From Aggregatilineales bacterium (GTDB taxonomy: Bacteria; Chloroflexota; Anaerolineae; Aggregatilineales; Ch27): a stretch of 64,000 bases of DNA. Made by a program: the position numbers and the translations under genes. Shown here one piece after another: positions 21,996 to 30,875 of this stretch. The notes beneath the pieces were generated by a model that was given only the letters and a program-made list of their open reading frames with translations, did no database searches and was not told the DNA's origin. The stretch covers positions 1 to 64,000 of the forward strand of contig JARKOQ010000036.1 of NCBI GenBank assembly GCA_029976005.1, given 5' to 3'. Position 1 is the first letter of the stretch. Every line of letters begins with the position of its first letter.

Positions 21996-22733
21996 CTACA
22001 GCGGATAGATCGCGATTCCCAACAGGCCGGCCACGGCCACGATCAGCGGGGCGATGAGCAGCGCGGGCAGGAAGTTCGCCATGCGCGGCTTCTTGAGGTC
22101 GAGCAGGATCAGCGACAGCCCGATCAGCAGCAGGCCGCCGGTGGCGGTCATCTCCGTGATCATCGGCTCGCTCATGAAGCTGCCCGCCAGCGCGCCCAGC
22201 ACGGCCAATCCCCCTTGCAGGACCAGGATCGTGATGATGCTGAAGGCCACGCCGATCCCCATCGCCGAGGCGAAGGCCAGCGAGGCGAAACCGTCCAGCA
22301 CGCTCTTGATCGCCAGCAGGTGATAGTCGCCGGTCATGCCGTCCTGGATCGAGCCGAGGAAGGTCAGTGGCCCGATGCAGAAGACCAGGCTGGCCGTCAC
22401 GAAGCCGGTGATGAAGCGCGAGCGCCCGTCGCCTTCCTGCGGGGCGCTCTCTGCCTGGGCGGGGGCGAAGCGCGCCTGGAGCCAGCCGCCGAAGGCGGTC
22501 AGCCTGCCGTCCAGGTCGAGCAGTTCGCCGACGATCACGCCCATGCCCACGCTGAGCAGCGGCAGGATGATGTTGCCCGTGCCCAGGGCGTTGTCGATGC
22601 CGACCACCAGCGTGACCAGCCCCAACCCGGTGACGACCGAAGTCTGGATACGCTCCGGCAGGCGGCCGCCCACCAGCAGGCCGATCGCGCTGCCCAGCGC
22701 GACCGTGAATGCGTTGAGAATCGTCCCGATCAT
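21996..22733 (-). CDS. DUF554 integral membrane protein
   Basis: The start at 22733 is supported by GGAGGGG eight bases upstream. The 245-residue product begins MIGTILNAFTVALGSAIGLL, the typical DUF554 start, and has about seven membrane helices. Conserved GITG/FITGF and GLDGFAS-like segments (KSVLDGFASLAFASAMGIGV) support the family. It has been proposed as a transporter, but its substrate is not established. Confidence 0.9.
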   Translation of the reverse strand: MIGTILNAFTVALGSAIGLLVGGRLPERIQTSVVTGLGLVTLVVGIDNALGTGNIILPLLSVGMGVIVGELLDLDGRLTAFGGWLQARFAPAQAESAPQEGDGRSRFITGFVTASLVFCIGPLTFLGSIQDGMTGDYHLLAIKSVLDGFASLAFASAMGIGVAFSIITILVLQGGLAVLGALAGSFMSEPMITEMTATGGLLLIGLSLILLDLKKPRMANFLPALLIAPLIVAVAGLLGIAIYPL

Positions 22734-22760
22734 GATCTTCCCCTCCGAAAGACATACGAA

Positions 22761-22816: not shown

Positions 22817-25800
22817 CTAGTTGAGCTTGGTCAGGGTCATCCTGAACTCGCCGTTGGTGAACCCGGCGGCCACGTCGAAACGCGTCACGACGATGACGTA
22901 CGTCCCCGTCATGGGCAGCGTGTATTGAATCTCCGAGTTGGTCGTGTTGTTGGCGTCGTCGTTCTCGGCCAGGGGCGTGCCGGACAGATCCCACAGGTAG
23001 AGCAGGGTATCCAGCGTCCCGGCCGTCGTATCGGCGGTGACGCGGATCGAATCGCCCGCCACGCCATCGAAGCGGTAGTAGGCCGCCAGCGGGTTATCGC
23101 CGACCACTCCGGTGGCGACCGCCCCATAGCTCACCACGGTGGCCTGGCTGAAATCGAAGGGCGGCAGGGCCGTCCCGGACTGGACCGGGCCGGGCGTGGC
23201 CGTCACGATGATGGGCGGGGTGGTGGGAGTCGCCGTCTGGAAGAGCGACGTCGCGGTGATGATCAGCGGCGTCCAGGTCGGCGTCGGTGTCTGGGTCACG
23301 ATCGCCACGGTCGGGGTGAAGGTCGGCGTGGCGATCGCGTTGTCGACCAGCACCGGGATGTCGAGCACGGCGTACCCGCCGCTGTTGGTCAGCACCGACA
23401 GGCGCAGGGTATACGGCCCGTTGGGAAGCTGGCTGACGTCCCAGCGCCCCAGGAACTCCGAGTTGGCGTGACTGACGGCGTAGGGGCCGTCCACGATGGT
23501 GAAGTTCTGGGCCGCCGCGCCGATGCCGTATTCGAGCTGGTAGCTGCGGAAGTCGTAGACCAACACCCGGCCGCGCACCTCGACCACGCCCTCGACTTCG
23601 GCGTTGGAGAGCGGGAAGTCGACGTTGATGATCGGCTGCTGGATGCTGGCGTCGCAGGCCTGGGTCGGCACCGGCTTGGCGGGCACGGCGATCCCGCGCG
23701 CCGCCGCCCACTGGCGGCCGGCGGTGGTGTTGTTGATCCACTCAAACGCGGTCGGATCGCTGATGTTCAGGAAGGTCTGCTCCGCGACGAAGTTGGGGCA
23801 GAACTGGTTGGCGACCAGCCCGTACAGGGTGCTGACCTGGACCTGCTTGAAGATGTCGTTGTCGGCGCTGGCCGGCGGCTGGGCGACCGCGTACAGCTCC
23901 TGGCGGCGGTTGAGGCAGCGCGAGGAGGGCTGCGTGCCGGAGTCGGCGCAGATTTCCGCCGTGGCGACGTTGGGCGGGATGGTGAATTCCACCGGAGCCT
24001 TGCCTGCCAGAGCGGCGGTCATGATCCGGTTCCAGATCGGCGCCGCGCCGGTGATGCCGCTGGTGCCGCGCATGGGGGCGTTGTTGGTGTTGCCGTGCCA
24101 CACTCCGACCACGACGTTCGGGGTATAGCCGATCGTCCAGTTGTCGCGGTTGTCGTTGGTCGTGCCGGTCTTGACCGCCACCGTGTAGCCGGGGATGTTC
24201 AGGATGCTGCCCGACCCGAAGGCCGCGCTGCGCGCCCGGTCGTCGGACAGGATGTGGTTGATCATGTAGGCGTGTTCGGGCTGGACGACCTGCTGCGGCT
24301 CCGGATGGGTGGGGAGCGGGATGTTGGCCCCCTGAACGTCCGTGATCCGGGTGATGGTGTACGGCGCCGGCCGCCGCCCGTTGTTGGCCAGCGTCCCGAA
24401 GGCGACCACCATGTCGTACAGGCGCACGTCGAAGCCGCCCAGCGCGCCGGTCAGCCCGGCCTGCTGCGGCGTGTTGCCGGGGAAGGTCAGGCCCATCGTC
24501 TGCGCCACCTGGGCGAAGCGATCGACCGTCACGAACTCCAGGGCCTTGACGGCCGGGATGTTGTAGCTGTTGGCCAGGGCGGAGCGGACCGACTGCGGCC
24601 CGTGATAGGCTCCGTCGTAGTTGCTGGGGCAGTACCCGGCCCAGCAGGTGGGCGTATCCCAGACGACCGTGCCCGGATACCAGTACTGGCCGGAGGGGTT
24701 GCCCTGGAAGGCAGCCGTATAGACCAGCGGCTTGATTGAGGAGCCGGGCTGCTGCGGCGAGAAGGCCACGTTGACCTGCCCGTCGATCGAGGCGTTGTTG
24801 TAGTCCACGCTGCCGACCATCGCCAGGATCGCCCCGTCGCGCGGGTCCATCACGACCACGCTGGCGTTGTTGCCGCCGATGCCCTGGGCCTGGAGGTTGG
24901 CGACCTCCTGGGCGGCCACGGCCTGGGCGATGTCTTGCAGGCCCGGATCGAGGGTCGTGTAGACGTTGAAACCGGTGCGGTAGATGTCCGCCAGGCCGTA
25001 ATTGGTCTCGAGCTGCTGGGCCACGAAGTTGACGAAATGCGGGTAGCGGATCGTGTTGGTCGGGATGTTGTACTCGCGCGCCTCGACCTGGGCCTTTTCC
25101 ACCACGGCGGCGGCCACGTTCTGCTGGGTGACGCAGAACGGCCCGGTCTGGACGTACGGCTCGTGCTGGAACTGGATGCAGCCGCGCCTGACCATCAGGT
25201 TCAGGACGATGTCCATGCGGGAGAAGGCCGTCTCGCGGTTGACCACGGGGTCGTAGGTCGCCGGGGCCTGGACGATCGAGGCGAGCAGAGCCGCCTGGGG
25301 CAGGTTCAGGTCGCGGGCGCTGATCCCGAAGTAGGTCTGCGCCGCGGCTTCCACGCCGTAGGCCAGGTTGCCGTAGTAAATTTCGTTGAGGTACAGCTCC
25401 AGGATTTCGTTCTTGGTGTAGCGGCGGCCGATCTCGGCGGCGATGATCACCTCGTCGATCTTGCGGCTGAGGCTGATCTCGGTCCGGCGGTCGGCTTCCA
25501 GCACCAGGGCGCGGGCGAGCTGTTGGGTGATCGAGCTGAAGCCGGAGACCACCTCGCCTTCCTGCACGTTCTGGATCATGGCGCGCACCACGGCGATCGC
25601 GTCCCAGCCGGGGTCTTCGAAGAAGCGCTCGTTTTCCGTGCTGATCGTGGCGTGGATCATCCACGGGCTGATTTCCTCCAGCGGCACGCTGATGCGCGTC
25701 CCGCCGGTGGGATCGTTGATCTGCGAAAGCAGGTTGCCGTTGCGGTCGAAAATCCGGGTCGTCTCGAACTGGCTGGCGAGCTGGGTCAGCGCCTCGATCC

Positions 25801-27136
25801 GGTCGTTGTACTGGCCAACCTTGGATACGTAGAAGAGGACGAGGCCCACGATCACCAGCAGAACCAGCCCCAGCCCGCCCAGGACGGCCGCGATCGCCGC
25901 GCGGACGATCCAGCGCTGGGTTTGCTGGGCCTGGCGCTCCTGCACGTGGCGGTAGCGCTCGGACTGGCTGGCGTCCAGGGCGGCCCCGTAATCCGGCTGG
26001 AGCGGCTCCTGGGCGGCCTGGGCCTGATCGTAGCCGTAGGCTTGCTGGGCATCCGGCGAGTAAGCGCCGGCCATCACGGTCGGGTCGGTGTAGCTCTGGC
26101 CGGGGATGGTTTCCTGGCTGTAAGGAAGCTGATCGAAGGCAACCGCCGCCGCGCCGACCAGGGTGGCTTCGGGGTCCAGGCGCGGGACGTGGGCCTGCAC
26201 TTCGGGGATGTCCGGGTTGTCCTCCGCGTAGGCCTGGCTGGTGAGGACATCCTCGGCGGCGTCGAAGCGGCCGTATTCCGAGGCCAGCATGGCGTCGGTA
26301 CCCTGCGGTTCGGCGGGGGCCAGGCGCGGCCGTTCCGCGCGGACCCACTGGCCGTTCTCGTGGCGGTACCACACGTCGGATTCGACGCCGATCATCCACC
26401 AGTAGCCCTGCTCGTCGAGCAGCATGAGCTTGCGCAACTCCGCCTGGAGCGCTTCGCGGGTGAGCTTGCCCTGGTGATAGCGGTGGCGCAGGCCGGTGAC
26501 TTCCTCCTCGACCCGGTCGAACTGGGCGACCAGCCCGGCCAGCGGAGACGTGGCCTGCGGTTCGGGGGTCGGCTCTTCCCCGGCCAGGGTGTCCTGGAGG
26601 GTGGCTCCGGTGGCGTCGGCGCTGGCGGCTTCGGCGGCATACTGCGCCGCCATGGCGGCCGCGATGGCCGCCGCGTCGCCCTCGGCGGGCGCTTCGGCTT
26701 CCACGTCGACGGCTTCCTCGGCGACCGGCTCGGCCGCGACGTCGGAGGTTTCCTCCTCGGCCGGGGCCGGTTCCGGCTGCGGGTAGATGGTGGCGTCGAC
26801 TCCGTCGAGCAGCCGGTCGCCCTCGATACCCGCCGGGATGTACCAGCCGCCTTCGCTCGGCTTGGGGCCGCTTCCGCCCGGCGCGGCCTGTTGGGGTTTG
26901 TACCAGCCGCCGGGGCGCGGGCTGGCAGGTTGTTGGGCGGGCGCGGCGGGAGTCGCCGGGGCGGCCGCCTCGTCCGGGGCGTGCCAGCCGGCCTCGGCCG
27001 ATTCCTCGGCCGGAGAAGCGGCCTCCTCCTCGCCGGGGGCGTGCCAGGCGGCGTGCTTCTCTTCCTCGGGCCACTCGCCGGACTCAGGAGACGCCGGATT
27101 GCGGGGCTGTTCGTCACTTGGCCGGTCAGACATCAT
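22817..27136 (-). CDS. Bifunctional class A penicillin-binding protein with Trp-motif N-terminus and PPC C-terminus
   Basis: A 1439-residue peptidoglycan synthase. Residues 1-405 are a long acidic, Ala/Pro/Gln-rich cytoplasmic region with four spaced motifs (AWHAP, GWHAP, GGWYKP and GGWYIP, at Trp31, 51, 78 and 98) and a compact Trp-rich module at 203-270. A membrane helix spans 410-437. The GT51 domain (460-640) has ENERFFEDPG (catalytic Glu501, Asn in place of the usual Asp) and GFSSITQQ. The transpeptidase domain has Ser799-xx-Lys802, Ser857-x-Asn859 and Lys989-Thr-Gly. An Ig-like domain (about 1165-1265), a Thr/Pro linker and a pre-peptidase C-terminal (PPC) domain (1335-1439) complete it. 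It builds and cross-links cell-wall glycan outside the membrane. CAGGGAG precedes the ATG. Confidence 0.94.
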   Translation of the reverse strand: MMSDRPSDEQPRNPASPESGEWPEEEKHAAWHAPGEEEAASPAEESAEAGWHAPDEAAAPATPAAPAQQPASPRPGGWYKPQQAAPGGSGPKPSEGGWYIPAGIEGDRLLDGVDATIYPQPEPAPAEEETSDVAAEPVAEEAVDVEAEAPAEGDAAAIAAAMAAQYAAEAASADATGATLQDTLAGEEPTPEPQATSPLAGLVAQFDRVEEEVTGLRHRYHQGKLTREALQAELRKLMLLDEQGYWWMIGVESDVWYRHENGQWVRAERPRLAPAEPQGTDAMLASEYGRFDAAEDVLTSQAYAEDNPDIPEVQAHVPRLDPEATLVGAAAVAFDQLPYSQETIPGQSYTDPTVMAGAYSPDAQQAYGYDQAQAAQEPLQPDYGAALDASQSERYRHVQERQAQQTQRWIVRAAIAAVLGGLGLVLLVIVGLVLFYVSKVGQYNDRIEALTQLASQFETTRIFDRNGNLLSQINDPTGGTRISVPLEEISPWMIHATISTENERFFEDPGWDAIAVVRAMIQNVQEGEVVSGFSSITQQLARALVLEADRRTEISLSRKIDEVIIAAEIGRRYTKNEILELYLNEIYYGNLAYGVEAAAQTYFGISARDLNLPQAALLASIVQAPATYDPVVNRETAFSRMDIVLNLMVRRGCIQFQHEPYVQTGPFCVTQQNVAAAVVEKAQVEAREYNIPTNTIRYPHFVNFVAQQLETNYGLADIYRTGFNVYTTLDPGLQDIAQAVAAQEVANLQAQGIGGNNASVVVMDPRDGAILAMVGSVDYNNASIDGQVNVAFSPQQPGSSIKPLVYTAAFQGNPSGQYWYPGTVVWDTPTCWAGYCPSNYDGAYHGPQSVRSALANSYNIPAVKALEFVTVDRFAQVAQTMGLTFPGNTPQQAGLTGALGGFDVRLYDMVVAFGTLANNGRRPAPYTITRITDVQGANIPLPTHPEPQQVVQPEHAYMINHILSDDRARSAAFGSGSILNIPGYTVAVKTGTTNDNRDNWTIGYTPNVVVGVWHGNTNNAPMRGTSGITGAAPIWNRIMTAALAGKAPVEFTIPPNVATAEICADSGTQPSSRCLNRRQELYAVAQPPASADNDIFKQVQVSTLYGLVANQFCPNFVAEQTFLNISDPTAFEWINNTTAGRQWAAARGIAVPAKPVPTQACDASIQQPIINVDFPLSNAEVEGVVEVRGRVLVYDFRSYQLEYGIGAAAQNFTIVDGPYAVSHANSEFLGRWDVSQLPNGPYTLRLSVLTNSGGYAVLDIPVLVDNAIATPTFTPTVAIVTQTPTPTWTPLIITATSLFQTATPTTPPIIVTATPGPVQSGTALPPFDFSQATVVSYGAVATGVVGDNPLAAYYRFDGVAGDSIRVTADTTAGTLDTLLYLWDLSGTPLAENDDANNTTNSEIQYTLPMTGTYVIVVTRFDVAAGFTNGEFRMTLTKLN

Positions 27137-27424: not shown

Positions 27425-29035
27425 TCAGGGCAGGGTGAAGGCGCAGTAGCCGTCCGCCATCAGACAGGTCTGAAGCTCTCGCCCGTCGAGGAGGACACGG
27501 AAGGTGTCCGCGCGGCCGTCCTGCGCCCAGGTGAGGCCGTCCGGGCTGGCGACCATCTGCACGGCGTATTCCGGCAGGGCGCAGGCGCGCGGCAGGGCGC
27601 GGGCGAAGTCGCTCATTTCGCGGACGCGGGCGCAATAACCGGCGGGCAGCCGCCCCTTGAACGCGGCCCCATCCAGGCTCGCGCCGTCCGCCCAGACGAA
27701 ACTCAGCCCGGCGAGGGGCAGGGCGTAATCCGAGTCGTTATAGAGGGTGAAGCTGGCGGAGTCGTAGTACAGCTCCAGGTTGAGCCGGGCATCCGCCGGG
27801 ATGCCGGCCGCGCCGCGATCGATGGTGCCGGCGTAGAACAGGCGGTGGAAGAGCGCCCCGGCATTCCCGCTGATCACCAGCGCCCCGGCCGCGACCGCCA
27901 GCACGACCAGGATCAGCACGCCGATGGGCAACCGGCGGCGGCGCGCCCTGGCCGGTTCTTCGGCCGGTTTGGCCGGTTCGACCGGTTTTTCCTCAGGTTG
28001 GGCGGCGGGTTCGGGCGCCGGCTCGGCGATGGGCTTGGCCTTGCGGGTGCGCGGTTTGGCTTTGCTCTTGGGCAGGCTGGTCGGCGGCGCGGCGACCACC
28101 GGCTCGGCCACAGCCGGCGCGACGGCCTCCGCCAGGCTGGCGGGCTGCACCATCATCGTGGGCATTTCGATCTCGGCGGTGACGTATGCCGCTTCCAACG
28201 CCTTGTAGAACTCCTCCCCGGTCTGGTAGCGGTCGGCCGGTTCCTTGGCCAACGCCCGCAGCAGGACGGCCTCCACCTGGGCGGGGATGGCCGGGTTGAA
28301 GCTGCGCGGGCTGGGGGGCTGGCTGGTGATGTGGCTGAGCGCGATGCTCATCGGGGATTCGTCCTCGAACGGGACGCGCCCGGTGAGCATTTCGTAGACC
28401 ACCACCCCCAGCGAATAGATGTCGCTCTGGGGCACGGCCTGCTGGGAGGAGACGGCCTGTTCCGGGGCGATGTAGCGCGGGGTGCCGAAGGCGGTGCCGC
28501 GCGTATTGTTGCCGCCCAGTTCCATCGCCAGGCCGAAATCGGTCAGGATGGCCCGGTTGTTGGCGTTGCGGTCGTACAGAATGTTGGACGGCTTGATGTC
28601 ACGGTGGATAATGCCGCGCGCGTGGGCGTAATCGAGGGCCGAGCACACGTCCCCCACCGTCTTGAGGATGCGCTCCACCGGCAGGCAGTCGCCGGTCCGG
28701 CGCAGGTCGCGCAGCACCTGGGCCAGGGTCTGGCCGTCCACCAGCTTCATGGCGATGAAGAACTGGCTGTCCGATTCGCCGAACTGGTAGATCGCGACGA
28801 TGTTGGGGTGCTCGAAATGGGCAATGGCCCTGGCTTCCAGGCGGAAGCGATCGATGATTCGCTCGTCCTCGGAATCGTCGGGGATATGCAGGACTTTGAC
28901 GGCGGCGGGGCGGCCCAGGTTTTCATCCAGGCCGCGATACACCCGCGCCATGCCGCCGCGGCCCAACACATCCTGGATGGTATAGTCACCCAGGCGCGTG
29001 CCGATCAGGGGGTCTTTTTCGGTTTTGGCGATCAT
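27425..29035 (-). CDS. Transmembrane Ser/Thr protein kinase (PknB-like)
   Basis: A 536-residue protein. The kinase domain (residues 17-280) is complete: GRGGMARVYRG loop, Lys47, HRDIKPSN (Asp146), DFG (166-168) and an APEQ-type activation segment end (IAPEQ). A Pro/Ala/Lys-rich juxtamembrane stretch (300-365) leads to one membrane helix (370-389) and a 145-residue outer domain of unknown fold that contains Cys residues. It should phosphorylate cytoplasmic targets in response to an external cue. It is the last gene of a minus-strand operon, 53 bases after a pseudo-receiver/roadblock gene, which may be a partner or substrate. Confidence 0.93.
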   Translation of the reverse strand: MIAKTEKDPLIGTRLGDYTIQDVLGRGGMARVYRGLDENLGRPAAVKVLHIPDDSEDERIIDRFRLEARAIAHFEHPNIVAIYQFGESDSQFFIAMKLVDGQTLAQVLRDLRRTGDCLPVERILKTVGDVCSALDYAHARGIIHRDIKPSNILYDRNANNRAILTDFGLAMELGGNNTRGTAFGTPRYIAPEQAVSSQQAVPQSDIYSLGVVVYEMLTGRVPFEDESPMSIALSHITSQPPSPRSFNPAIPAQVEAVLLRALAKEPADRYQTGEEFYKALEAAYVTAEIEMPTMMVQPASLAEAVAPAVAEPVVAAPPTSLPKSKAKPRTRKAKPIAEPAPEPAAQPEEKPVEPAKPAEEPARARRRRLPIGVLILVVLAVAAGALVISGNAGALFHRLFYAGTIDRGAAGIPADARLNLELYYDSASFTLYNDSDYALPLAGLSFVWADGASLDGAAFKGRLPAGYCARVREMSDFARALPRACALPEYAVQMVASPDGLTWAQDGRADTFRVLLDGRELQTCLMADGYCAFTLP

Positions 29036-29088
29036 AGTACGATGTGCGGGTGCGGCCCCGGCCTGGGGCGGCAGCGCGATGCTCCAGG

Positions 29089-30264
29089 TTACTGGTTGAT
29101 CACACCCATTTGCTGCGCTTCTTCATAGGACAGGCGATTCCCCTCGTTCGCGTCGGCCGCGATCTCGGCCAGTTTGTCGGGATTGAAGAGATCGTCCACC
29201 TTGGACATGTCCAGGTTTTGCAGCCCGGCCAGCATGCCTTCCAGGTCGACGTCGTCGGGCAGCGGCTCCAGGGTCGGTTCGGGCGGCGGCTCAGGCTTCT
29301 TGCTGGCGGGCGGCGGCATGACGGGCAGTCCGGTGGGCCGGGTGGGCAGGGTCGGCCGTTCGGACGCGGGTATGGGTCGCCGATCCTGGGCGGCCGGGCG
29401 TGGTTTGGGCTTGGCTGCCGGCGCGGGCGCGGTGAATTCGAACGCGGCGCGGCCGATCGAGTCCACGATTTCCTGGGCGCTGCGGCGGCCGTAGGTTGTG
29501 GCGACGCCGAAGTTGCGCGCCCCGGTCGTGCCCTCGAAGACCATGCACAGGAAATGGTGCAGGCCGATGGTCAGCACGAAGATGTCGAACTCGTCCCCGT
29601 CGTAGTAATGGATGGCCTGCGGGCGCTTGCCGCCCACCACCGGGCCGATGGTGAGCATGTGCCCGAACATGGGCACCAGTGTCCGGGCCAGGTGCTCGCG
29701 GTCGACGTAGCCGACCGCGCCGATTTCCTGAAGCACGGCCCCGGAGCGATCCATCAGGATGATCGCCATCGCGCCGACGTTGGTCAGCAGCTTGTGCATG
29801 ATCTCGCTGACCGCGCCGACGTTGACGGGCGGCACCGGGCCGAGGTCGGGCAGCGCCGAGGCGGCCGGAGCCGCGCTCGGTTCGGTCGGTTCCTGGCCGT
29901 CCATCACGGCGTGCAGGACGCGCACGAACCGGTCGCCATCGGCCGGGCGGACCAGATGGTACACGGGCGCGCCGACCGGGATTTCGGAGTCGTCCTCCGG
30001 GTCGTCGGCCCCGGCCAGGATGATGATGGGCAGGTTCGGGGCGACCCGGTTGGCTTTGGACGCCAGCTCGAAGCCGCGCATATCCTGCAGCACGGCCGCG
30101 CTGACCAGCAGGTCCATGCCCCCGCGCTGGACTTCTTGCAGGGCATCGGCCCCACCGTGGGCCTCGATGACCACGCCGGGGCGTTCCAGGAGGTCCAGGG
30201 CAGCTCGGATGATCTGGGCCGTGAGGGCCGTGCTGTCCGCTACGAGTATTCGCTGTGCCGTCAT
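29089..30264 (-). CDS. Pseudo-receiver + roadblock/LC7-like protein
   Basis: A 391-residue protein. Residues 4-120 fold like a response-regulator receiver (QRILVADS, then DLLVSAAVLQDMRGFEL, then YHLVRP), but the phospho-acceptor Asp is Ala56 and the conserved Lys is Arg106, so normal phosphorylation is impossible. Residues about 148-275 look like a roadblock/LC7 or related profilin-like domain (AIILMDRSGAVLQEIGAVG start, FLCMVFEG strand). The C-terminal third is Pro-rich and ends in a short acidic helical tail. Roadblock domains often regulate Ras-like GTPases such as MglA. AGGTAGG precedes the ATG and overlaps the stop of the upstream NUDIX gene, so the two are coupled. Confidence 0.75.
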   Translation of the reverse strand: MTAQRILVADSTALTAQIIRAALDLLERPGVVIEAHGGADALQEVQRGGMDLLVSAAVLQDMRGFELASKANRVAPNLPIIILAGADDPEDDSEIPVGAPVYHLVRPADGDRFVRVLHAVMDGQEPTEPSAAPAASALPDLGPVPPVNVGAVSEIMHKLLTNVGAMAIILMDRSGAVLQEIGAVGYVDREHLARTLVPMFGHMLTIGPVVGGKRPQAIHYYDGDEFDIFVLTIGLHHFLCMVFEGTTGARNFGVATTYGRRSAQEIVDSIGRAAFEFTAPAPAAKPKPRPAAQDRRPIPASERPTLPTRPTGLPVMPPPASKKPEPPPEPTLEPLPDDVDLEGMLAGLQNLDMSKVDDLFNPDKLAEIAADANEGNRLSYEEAQQMGVINQ

Positions 30265-30272
30265 GTGGTTAC

Positions 30273-30875
30273 CTACCTGGCGTGAACCGGTCTTAAACCT
30301 TGATTATACTGCATTATACTGCACTGGATGAACTCGTACGATACGGCCCGGAAACGCCCCCATGGCAGCCAGTCCGCCGGTAATTGGCGGAGCTGAGAGG
30401 CCACCTGGCCGAGCTGGGCCACGGGAATCCAGCGAAACGCGTCGATCTCGCCGTTGGTGGGAGCCGGCTCGAACGCCGGCCCGACCTCCGCCAGGAACAC
30501 GTACGAGACGTAGGGGGCATGGCCGGCCTGGGCCAGGTGCAGGTCGTAATCGACCACTCCCAGCAGCCCGGCGTCGTCCACCGCCCGGCCGGTTTCCTCG
30601 TGAATCTCGCGCAGGGCCGAGGCGTAGGGCTGTTCCCCCGGCTCCACCCCGCCGGTGGGCAGGCGGTAAATCCCGGCCGGGTAGACGGTCTTGTTGACCA
30701 GCAGCAGCTCGCCGCCGCGCTGGATGACCATGATCACCTCGGCGACGCGCCCCCGGCCCTGTCCGAACCGGCCGGTGCGCAGCGGGTCGACCTCGACCGT
30801 GACCGTCTGGACGGGCACGTCCGGCGCGAAGAGCGACAGCGGCCGCAGTTCATCTCTATTGTATATCCGACCCAT
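30273..30875 (-). CDS. NUDIX hydrolase
   Basis: A 200-residue protein with a perfect Nudix box (GGVEPGE, seven residues, REIHEETGR). It cleaves a nucleoside diphosphate derivative; the substrate is unknown. It is the first gene of an operon with the pseudo-receiver/roadblock gene (8-base gap) and the Ser/Thr kinase. Its last codons include two direct copies of ATTATACTGC (plus strand 30303-30322), giving two minus-strand TATAAT boxes inside the gene. A promoter at 30961-30990 drives it. Confidence 0.9.
   Translation of the reverse strand: MGRIYNRDELRPLSLFAPDVPVQTVTVEVDPLRTGRFGQGRGRVAEVIMVIQRGGELLLVNKTVYPAGIYRLPTGGVEPGEQPYASALREIHEETGRAVDDAGLLGVVDYDLHLAQAGHAPYVSYVFLAEVGPAFEPAPTNGEIDAFRWIPVAQLGQVASQLRQLPADWLPWGRFRAVSYEFIQCSIMQYNQGLRPVHAR
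30303..30318 (-). promoter_or_regulatory. Duplicated TATAAT inside the NUDIX 3' end
   Basis: Two perfect minus-strand TATAAT boxes (30308-30303 and 30318-30313), ten bases apart, lie about 40-50 bases before the pseudo-receiver start. The -35 regions are poor, so an internal promoter is only possible. Confidence 0.35.

Follow-up and report, generated by a model that had tools for sequence, protein, structure and literature searches.

The cytoplasmic tail of PonA1, a class A penicillin-binding protein (PBP) of mycobacteria, is phosphorylated by PknB at Thr34, restraining elongation (PMC4483258). Both Asp101 and His107 of S. aureus MGT are counted among the residues of a single pocket, and the change Asp101Asn left the enzyme unable to polymerise lipid II (PMC6053601, citing Heaslet 2009). 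In C. difficile PBP1, the change E137Q/D138N, which includes the catalytic Glu, was made to abolish glycosyltransferase (GTase) activity (PMC12539705). Here we describe an unusually large class A PBP from an Aggregatilineales bacterium (Chloroflexota), encoded in a 64,000-nucleotide stretch, the window, that covers positions 1 to 64,000 of contig JARKOQ010000036.1. It combines a long cytoplasmic arm with a natural Asp-to-Asn change beside the catalytic Glu. Neither the architecture nor the Asn/Asp swap was described in the literature searched, which lay largely outside subscription papers and was seen as titles and abstract beginnings, and nothing was found there on the control of wall growth in Chloroflexota.

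We narrowly favour reading it as a bifunctional class A PBP whose arm is conserved and probably regulatory and whose GT51 loop is an alternative one, reciprocally swapped. The parts of the protein are as follows.

22817 to 27136, minus strand: class A PBP, 1439 residues (open reading frame, Pfam, NCBIfam).
27035 to 27049, minus strand: W motif 1, AWHAP, residues 30-34 (W31; sequence and conservation).
26975 to 26989, minus strand: W motif 2, GWHAP, residues 50-54 (W51; sequence and conservation).
26894 to 26908, minus strand: W motif 3, GWYKP, residues 77-81 (W78; sequence and conservation).
26834 to 26848, minus strand: W motif 4, GWYIP, residues 97-101 (W98; sequence and conservation).
26327 to 26539, minus strand: small folded domain, a SHOCT-like hairpin and three strands, WWMxG...WYxxxGxxW, residues 200-270 (alignment, model, Pfam).
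26156 to 26176, minus strand: DPEATLV, residues 321-327, a putative Hanks-kinase site with the Thr325 codon at 26162-26164 (alignment).
25988 to 25999, minus strand: QPDY motif between arm and membrane helix, residues 380-383 (alignment).
25829 to 25909, minus strand: membrane helix, about residues 410-436 (by eye from the sequence).
25193 to 25738, minus strand: GT51 transglycosylase, residues 467-648 (Pfam PF00912, E 1.7e-54).
25613 to 25636, minus strand: catalytic loop ENERFFED with Glu501, Asn502 (+1) and Asp508 (+7) (81-row alignment).
24020 to 24862, minus strand: transpeptidase, residues 759-1039, with SSIK at 799, SYN at 857 and KTGT at 989 (Pfam PF00905, E 1.3e-24).
23333 to 23623, minus strand: Ig-like domain, residues 1172-1268 (model, structure matches, weak Pfam).
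22883 to 23083, minus strand: PPC domain, residues 1352-1418 (Pfam PF04151, 31.0 bits, cut-off 25.9).

The frame is open over all 1439 residues and starts at the ATG at 27136 or, alternatively, at a second ATG at 27133, judging by the MADRP/MSDQP of its relatives. As in class A PBPs generally, a single hydrophobic helix precedes the glycosyltransferase (GT) domain (read by eye); PF00912 matches with 184 bits against a cut-off of 27, with the catalytic Glu501 present, and PF00905 with 87 bits against 22.1, with SxxK, SxN and KTG intact. The best NCBIfam models, TIGR02074 (PBP_1a_fam, 462 bits) and TIGR02073 (penicillin-binding protein 1C, 424 bits), stay below their cut-offs of 508.75 and 494.2. 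A genome search found three other class A PBPs in the same genome, of 843, 1074 and 968 residues. The four [AG]W[HY]xP motifs, the helix, the Glu501/Asn502 pair and the Ig-like plus PPC tail all lie where a preliminary description of the sequence had put them. That description allowed that head and tail might be assembly artefacts; orthologs in many independent assemblies share arm, core and Ig-like tail, and we therefore rule out artefact or fusion.

Strong matches to the window protein occur in all 41 genomes searched (its own and 40 relatives), in some as shorter paralogs only; for 29 relatives we read the best frames, of which some are truncated at contig ends. Among named genomes, a scan turned up 52 loci that encode the cytoplasmic domain; their titles read Chloroflexi, Anaerolineae, Aggregatilineales, Anaerolinea, Thermoflexus and similar, with Pleurocapsa minor as the one exception. 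The locus so titled (contig JAHHHY010000015.1) carries a Chloroflexota PBP, and its cyanobacterial label is probably wrong. The frames of 45 of the 52 loci contain a PBP match; of the seven without, two (L077 and L081) stop short of the catalytic core and have the same arm motifs. With 20 regions added, chosen mostly for paralogs, we obtained 98 proteins, of which 81 were aligned after removal of 17 near-copies. The tree was built by a quick method from 600 columns, excluding the two trait columns discussed below, and 18 of its 78 inner branches are weakly supported. In it, 62 sequences form one Chloroflexota clade (SH-aLRT support 100), and the 19 shorter paralogs fall outside it. At least 1300 residues are present in 46 of the 62 clade rows, and 52 have the long arm with the domain. 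The search for this architecture in Chloroflexota, proposed in the preliminary description, thus ends in a supported clade. Motifs were counted in 30 representatives, those of the 52 rows that are less than 70% identical in the core.

The arm is mostly low-complexity and can be aligned only in blocks: the W motifs, the domain with WWMxG...WYxxxGxxWVxxxPP at its end, MPLPxxVPxxDxxAT[LMV]V and, ahead of the helix, QPDYSAA. W[HYFR]xP occurs 74 times, in 28 of the 30 representatives, against 0.9 expected from shuffled arms; as a control, no representative has a W motif after the domain. The threonine motif is found in 27 of 30 against 3.1 expected (maximum 8 in 500 shuffles), while ahead of the domain it is at chance, with 3 sequences against 3.7 expected. 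P[DS]Y occurs in 20 representatives against 2.5 expected. All 52 rows that have both arm and domain show threonine, never serine, in the Thr325 column, and family f3, which lacks the domain, nonetheless has the motif in three of four rows. The folded domain, the invariant Thr325 and the pairing of Asp508 with Asn502 go beyond what the preliminary description had recognised.

The domain is modelled with confidence from a 16-row alignment (pLDDT 93.1) as two helices followed by three strands. SHOCT (PF09851) matches weakly in 6 of the 16 rows (best E 0.0019), though not in the window row, and other Pfam and NCBIfam matches are weak and scattered. A sequence search of the PDB with the domain gave nothing convincing (best E 0.014, covering one helix only), none of the 117 PDB matches of its model in Foldseek reached E <=0.001, and the best Z in VIA-align was 4.0. 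The modelled domain therefore has no convincing match in the libraries searched, which does not by itself prove a new fold. It is found once in its own genome and in 29 of 400 genomes of the phylum, few of which belong to the window's order. Twelve further regions (L118-L129), read by eye, place it in other contexts, for instance at the N-terminus of membrane proteins that carry TolB-like repeats, and in short proteins with zinc ribbons. The domain looks like a cytoplasmic module at the level of the phylum. At five named loci (L113-L117) it is followed by repeated WYYYDG units, and the three complete frames continue with a helix and LysM-like and TolB-like parts (by eye).

The arm also persists where catalytic residues have been lost. 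Ser799 and Lys802 are kept in 54 of the 61 clade rows that cover the site. The seven orthologs without them (L112, L147, L038, L041, L035, L103 and L111) occupy three positions in the tree, one being an unstarred group with support 93. Every one of them retains the Thr motif. W motifs are present in six; the seventh, L103, lies on a contig that begins just before the domain. L112 and L147 have lost the catalytic Glu as well, and L112 is still matched by the Pfam Transgly and Transpeptidase models. The L147 match has one in-frame stop in the genome, so this gene may be broken altogether. For four of their genomes (G012, G018, G010 and G023), no second long ortholog was found among the matches listed. 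From their sequences, the seven are likely pseudo-synthases. As they keep the arm, it seems to be selected independently of catalysis and to have a function of its own.

The preliminary description proposed that the Trp motifs recruit cytoplasmic partners. This gains indirect support from their conservation and from their survival in six of the seven orthologs with a decayed transpeptidase site; a partner did not emerge. Tandem W[HY]xP motifs 30-60 bases apart match at four places in the window's own genome, with no partner candidate: two lie in this PBP, and the other two, read by eye, are out of frame or interrupted by stops.

The gene directly upstream of the PBP suggests how Thr325 might be used.

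27425 to 29035, minus strand: membrane Hanks-type Ser/Thr kinase with HRDIKPSN, DFG and APE (Pfam PF00069, E 1.3e-49).

The kinase gene ends 288 bp upstream of the first ATG of the PBP, and a same-strand kinase directly precedes the PBP in the window and three family members. In six genomes of family f4, a convergent kinase lies 1.0-1.9 kb downstream. A regular expression found a kinase near the PBP at 15 of 64 loci, a set that includes duplicates and loci with short flanks; the expression overlooked a kinase-like frame about 6.5 kb from the PBP in G009. No FHA domain was found near the PBP by a rough regular expression, of the kind that missed the G009 frame. In the window's genome, 25 Pkinase matches and 19 FHA matches were found. 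A threonine preceded by an acidic residue and followed by hydrophobic ones is the expected look of a kinase or FHA site. Of 16 kinase juxtamembrane segments, 2 contain the PBP-derived motif [AR]T[LMVI][VP][GSN], against 0.14 expected (15 of 2000 shuffles); of 13 kinase extracellular parts, none does. The segments come from the 16 usable frames among 20 kinase regions plus the window's own, out of the 25 matches, and this stricter motif was tested after the output for looser motifs was known. We regard Thr325 as a putative Hanks-kinase site.

Other genes accompany these. In the window a response-regulator protein and a NUDIX gene lie upstream of the kinase on the same strand (27425-30875, kinase included), and G002 and G004 show the same succession of NUDIX, regulator, kinase and PBP. 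The gene after the PBP, at 21996-22739, is a DUF554 gene, as it also is in the three family members and three f8 regions. Elsewhere in the same genome, about 1.5 kb separate a gene for an FHA-domain membrane protein whose linker includes PQETVIGS (L150, G000:C258:6450-6644) from a different class A PBP (L003, 8097-10208).

In the mechanism we propose, GT51 would polymerise lipid II outside the cell and the transpeptidase would cross-link the product, with the Ig-like domain, plus PPC in the window's family, probably holding the enzyme at the wall. Inside, by the predicted topology, the mostly low-complexity arm of about 405 residues would be a regulatory docking platform on which the W[HY]xP motifs may bind a partner and the small folded domain may make a second contact. 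Thr325 would be phosphorylated by a Hanks-type kinase, in the window's family probably the product of the adjacent gene. The phosphorylated residue might then be read by an FHA protein, tuning where and when the synthase works. In the catalytic loop, Asp at Glu+7 would replace the usual Asp at Glu+1, so that the loop keeps an acid.

Several points weigh against this picture. Phosphorylation of Thr325 is something we infer, and the activity of the swapped loop we infer from conservation only. The regions read from families f2, f3, f7 and f8 contain no detected kinase near the PBP, and the pairing of kinase and PBP is therefore not order-wide. Neither the W motifs nor the arm domain yielded a binding partner. 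Loose kinase-site motifs are not convincing, with 9 sites against 6.0 expected (139 of 1000 shuffles) and 8 of 16 juxtamembrane segments against 4.6 (38 of 1000). The Thr325 count excludes 10 of the 62 rows, which have a short arm or no domain, and MAFFT may favour lining up threonines, though the motif count is independent of MAFFT. In the pneumococcal kinase StkP, the juxtamembrane phosphothreonines do not fit the predicted substrate motif (PMC12077195).

The arm could instead be a constitutive docking platform, with Thr325 and the W motifs as plain linear motifs that cytoskeletal or divisome partners bind, and with phosphorylation playing no part. We think this possible, at roughly one chance in three. 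Conservation of the motifs requires binding alone, kinase adjacency is seen in two families only, and the tandem W[HY]xP pattern in its own genome is, apart from out-of-frame or interrupted matches, confined to this PBP. Against it, Ser never takes the place of this Thr in the 52 rows, the flanks are those expected of kinase and FHA sites, and the same motif recurs in two of the 16 kinase juxtamembrane segments.

The second part of our reading concerns the catalytic loop. The canonical GT51 motif I is EDxxFxxHxG; here Asn502 stands for Asp at Glu+1 and Asp508 for His at Glu+7, where most relatives without Asn at +1 carry Asn in place of the textbook His. Among the 81 aligned PBPs, 37 have Asn at +1 with Asp at +7 and 44 have Asp or Glu at +1 with a residue other than Asp at +7 (L035, for example, has Glu and Ala), while Asn with non-Asp and non-Asn with Asp are both absent. 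One of the 37, L147, carries Arg in place of the Glu. The tree has seven changes at +7 and seven changes of Asn at +1, which are joint in seven of seven independent pairs (sign test, p 0.0156). Mutual information for the pair is 0.99 bit, against 0.64 for the next best column within residues 455-1059. Private decay of Asn502 in the window protein was considered and rejected, as the Asn/Asp pair is present in 37 of 81 rows and recurrent on the tree. Nearby, in motif II, Phe533 (25538-25540) is private to the window row (1 of 81; the other rows have mostly Ala, 54, or Gly, 17) and Ser535 is rare (4 of 81; Thr in 72).

DNA patterns for the loop were sought in 350 genomes of the phylum and the matches judged by their letters alone; with Asn at +1, the +7 states sought were Asp and Asn. 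The Asn/Asp pattern matched seven times: the window, four GT51-like places in G132 and G093, and two that are not GT51-like. Asn/Asn matched once, not GT51-like, so that no Asn/Asn loop was seen. Asp/Asp matched at 21 places in 17 genomes, many of them GT51-like and most in family f60 (GT51-like loops in G159, G175, G183, G191, G279, G314, G328 and G381). As Asp/Asp loops occur and Asn/Asn was not seen, Asp/Asp is a possible evolutionary intermediate of the swap.

If Asn at +1 killed the glycosyltransferase, these lineages would have a protein that is only a transpeptidase or a scaffold. This is what the S. aureus Asp101Asn mutant and the C. difficile double mutant, with its altered catalytic Glu, would lead one to expect, and some orthologs are clearly degenerate. 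Yet the Asn always comes with Asp at +7 (37 of 37 rows), and the 18 GT columns with 95% identity or more across the 44 remaining rows are all kept in at least 33 of the 37 Asn rows, which argues against a dead enzyme; rows that have truly decayed lose several motifs together. We consider a dead glycosyltransferase unlikely. A more specific version of our own reading is that Chloroflexota switched repeatedly to a second working GT51 loop, with the acid moved from +1 to +7, and that the arm is selected for a function of its own, the synthase of some lineages having been reduced to a scaffold that has no catalytic centres and carries just the arm. This we put forward tentatively, at a little short of even chances.

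The Ig-like domain is modelled as seven strands (pLDDT 96.0) and has many Ig- and FnIII-type matches in the PDB (best E 1.2e-3, probability 1.00, none reaching 0.001) and weak Pfam support. The preliminary description thought a PPC domain unusual in a synthase. The domain is real but local: PPC is present in 4 of 61 ortholog tails, those of the window and three family members only, and PPC-type matches are common elsewhere in its genome. We rejected it as a defining part of the architecture. An ordinary class A PBP without any regulatory part, in which a low-complexity tail has drifted and single lineages have added domains, would suit the low-complexity arm, alignable in blocks only, and the commonness of PPC-type matches, but this reading is very improbable given the strong motif excess over shuffles, the invariant Thr, the confidently modelled domain and the retention of the arm in orthologs without catalytic residues.

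The swapped loop is a natural version of an Asp-to-Asn change that inactivates S. aureus MGT in the laboratory, seemingly repaired by a change in its partner residue. It bears on the GT51 pocket and is relevant to moenomycin-type inhibitors. The arm offers a testable link from kinase to synthase in Chloroflexota, and the pseudo-synthases suggest a scaffold role independent of catalysis.

Like the PBP1A and PBP1C types (TIGR02074, TIGR02073), the window protein combines GT51 with a transpeptidase that has SxxK, SxN and KTG, both following a single membrane helix; unlike them, it has the cytoplasmic arm, the swapped motif I and the Ig-like and PPC domains. Its loop keeps the catalytic Glu, the Phe and the Gly of motif I of S. 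aureus MGT and E. coli PBP1b, and differs in the Asn for Asp and the Asp for His. The helical hairpin of the arm domain (about residues 200-237) resembles SHOCT (PF09851), a domain that is predominantly C-terminal (PMC3581485), whereas here the hairpin is followed by the three-strand WWMxG...WYxxxGxxW unit and stands N-terminal to a membrane helix. A functional precedent is PonA1: it too is a class A PBP, and its long cytoplasmic tail has a threonine that a Hanks kinase phosphorylates. The PonA1 tail is called unconserved in PMC4483258; the arm of the window protein has conserved motifs and a folded domain, and its phosphorylation is putative.

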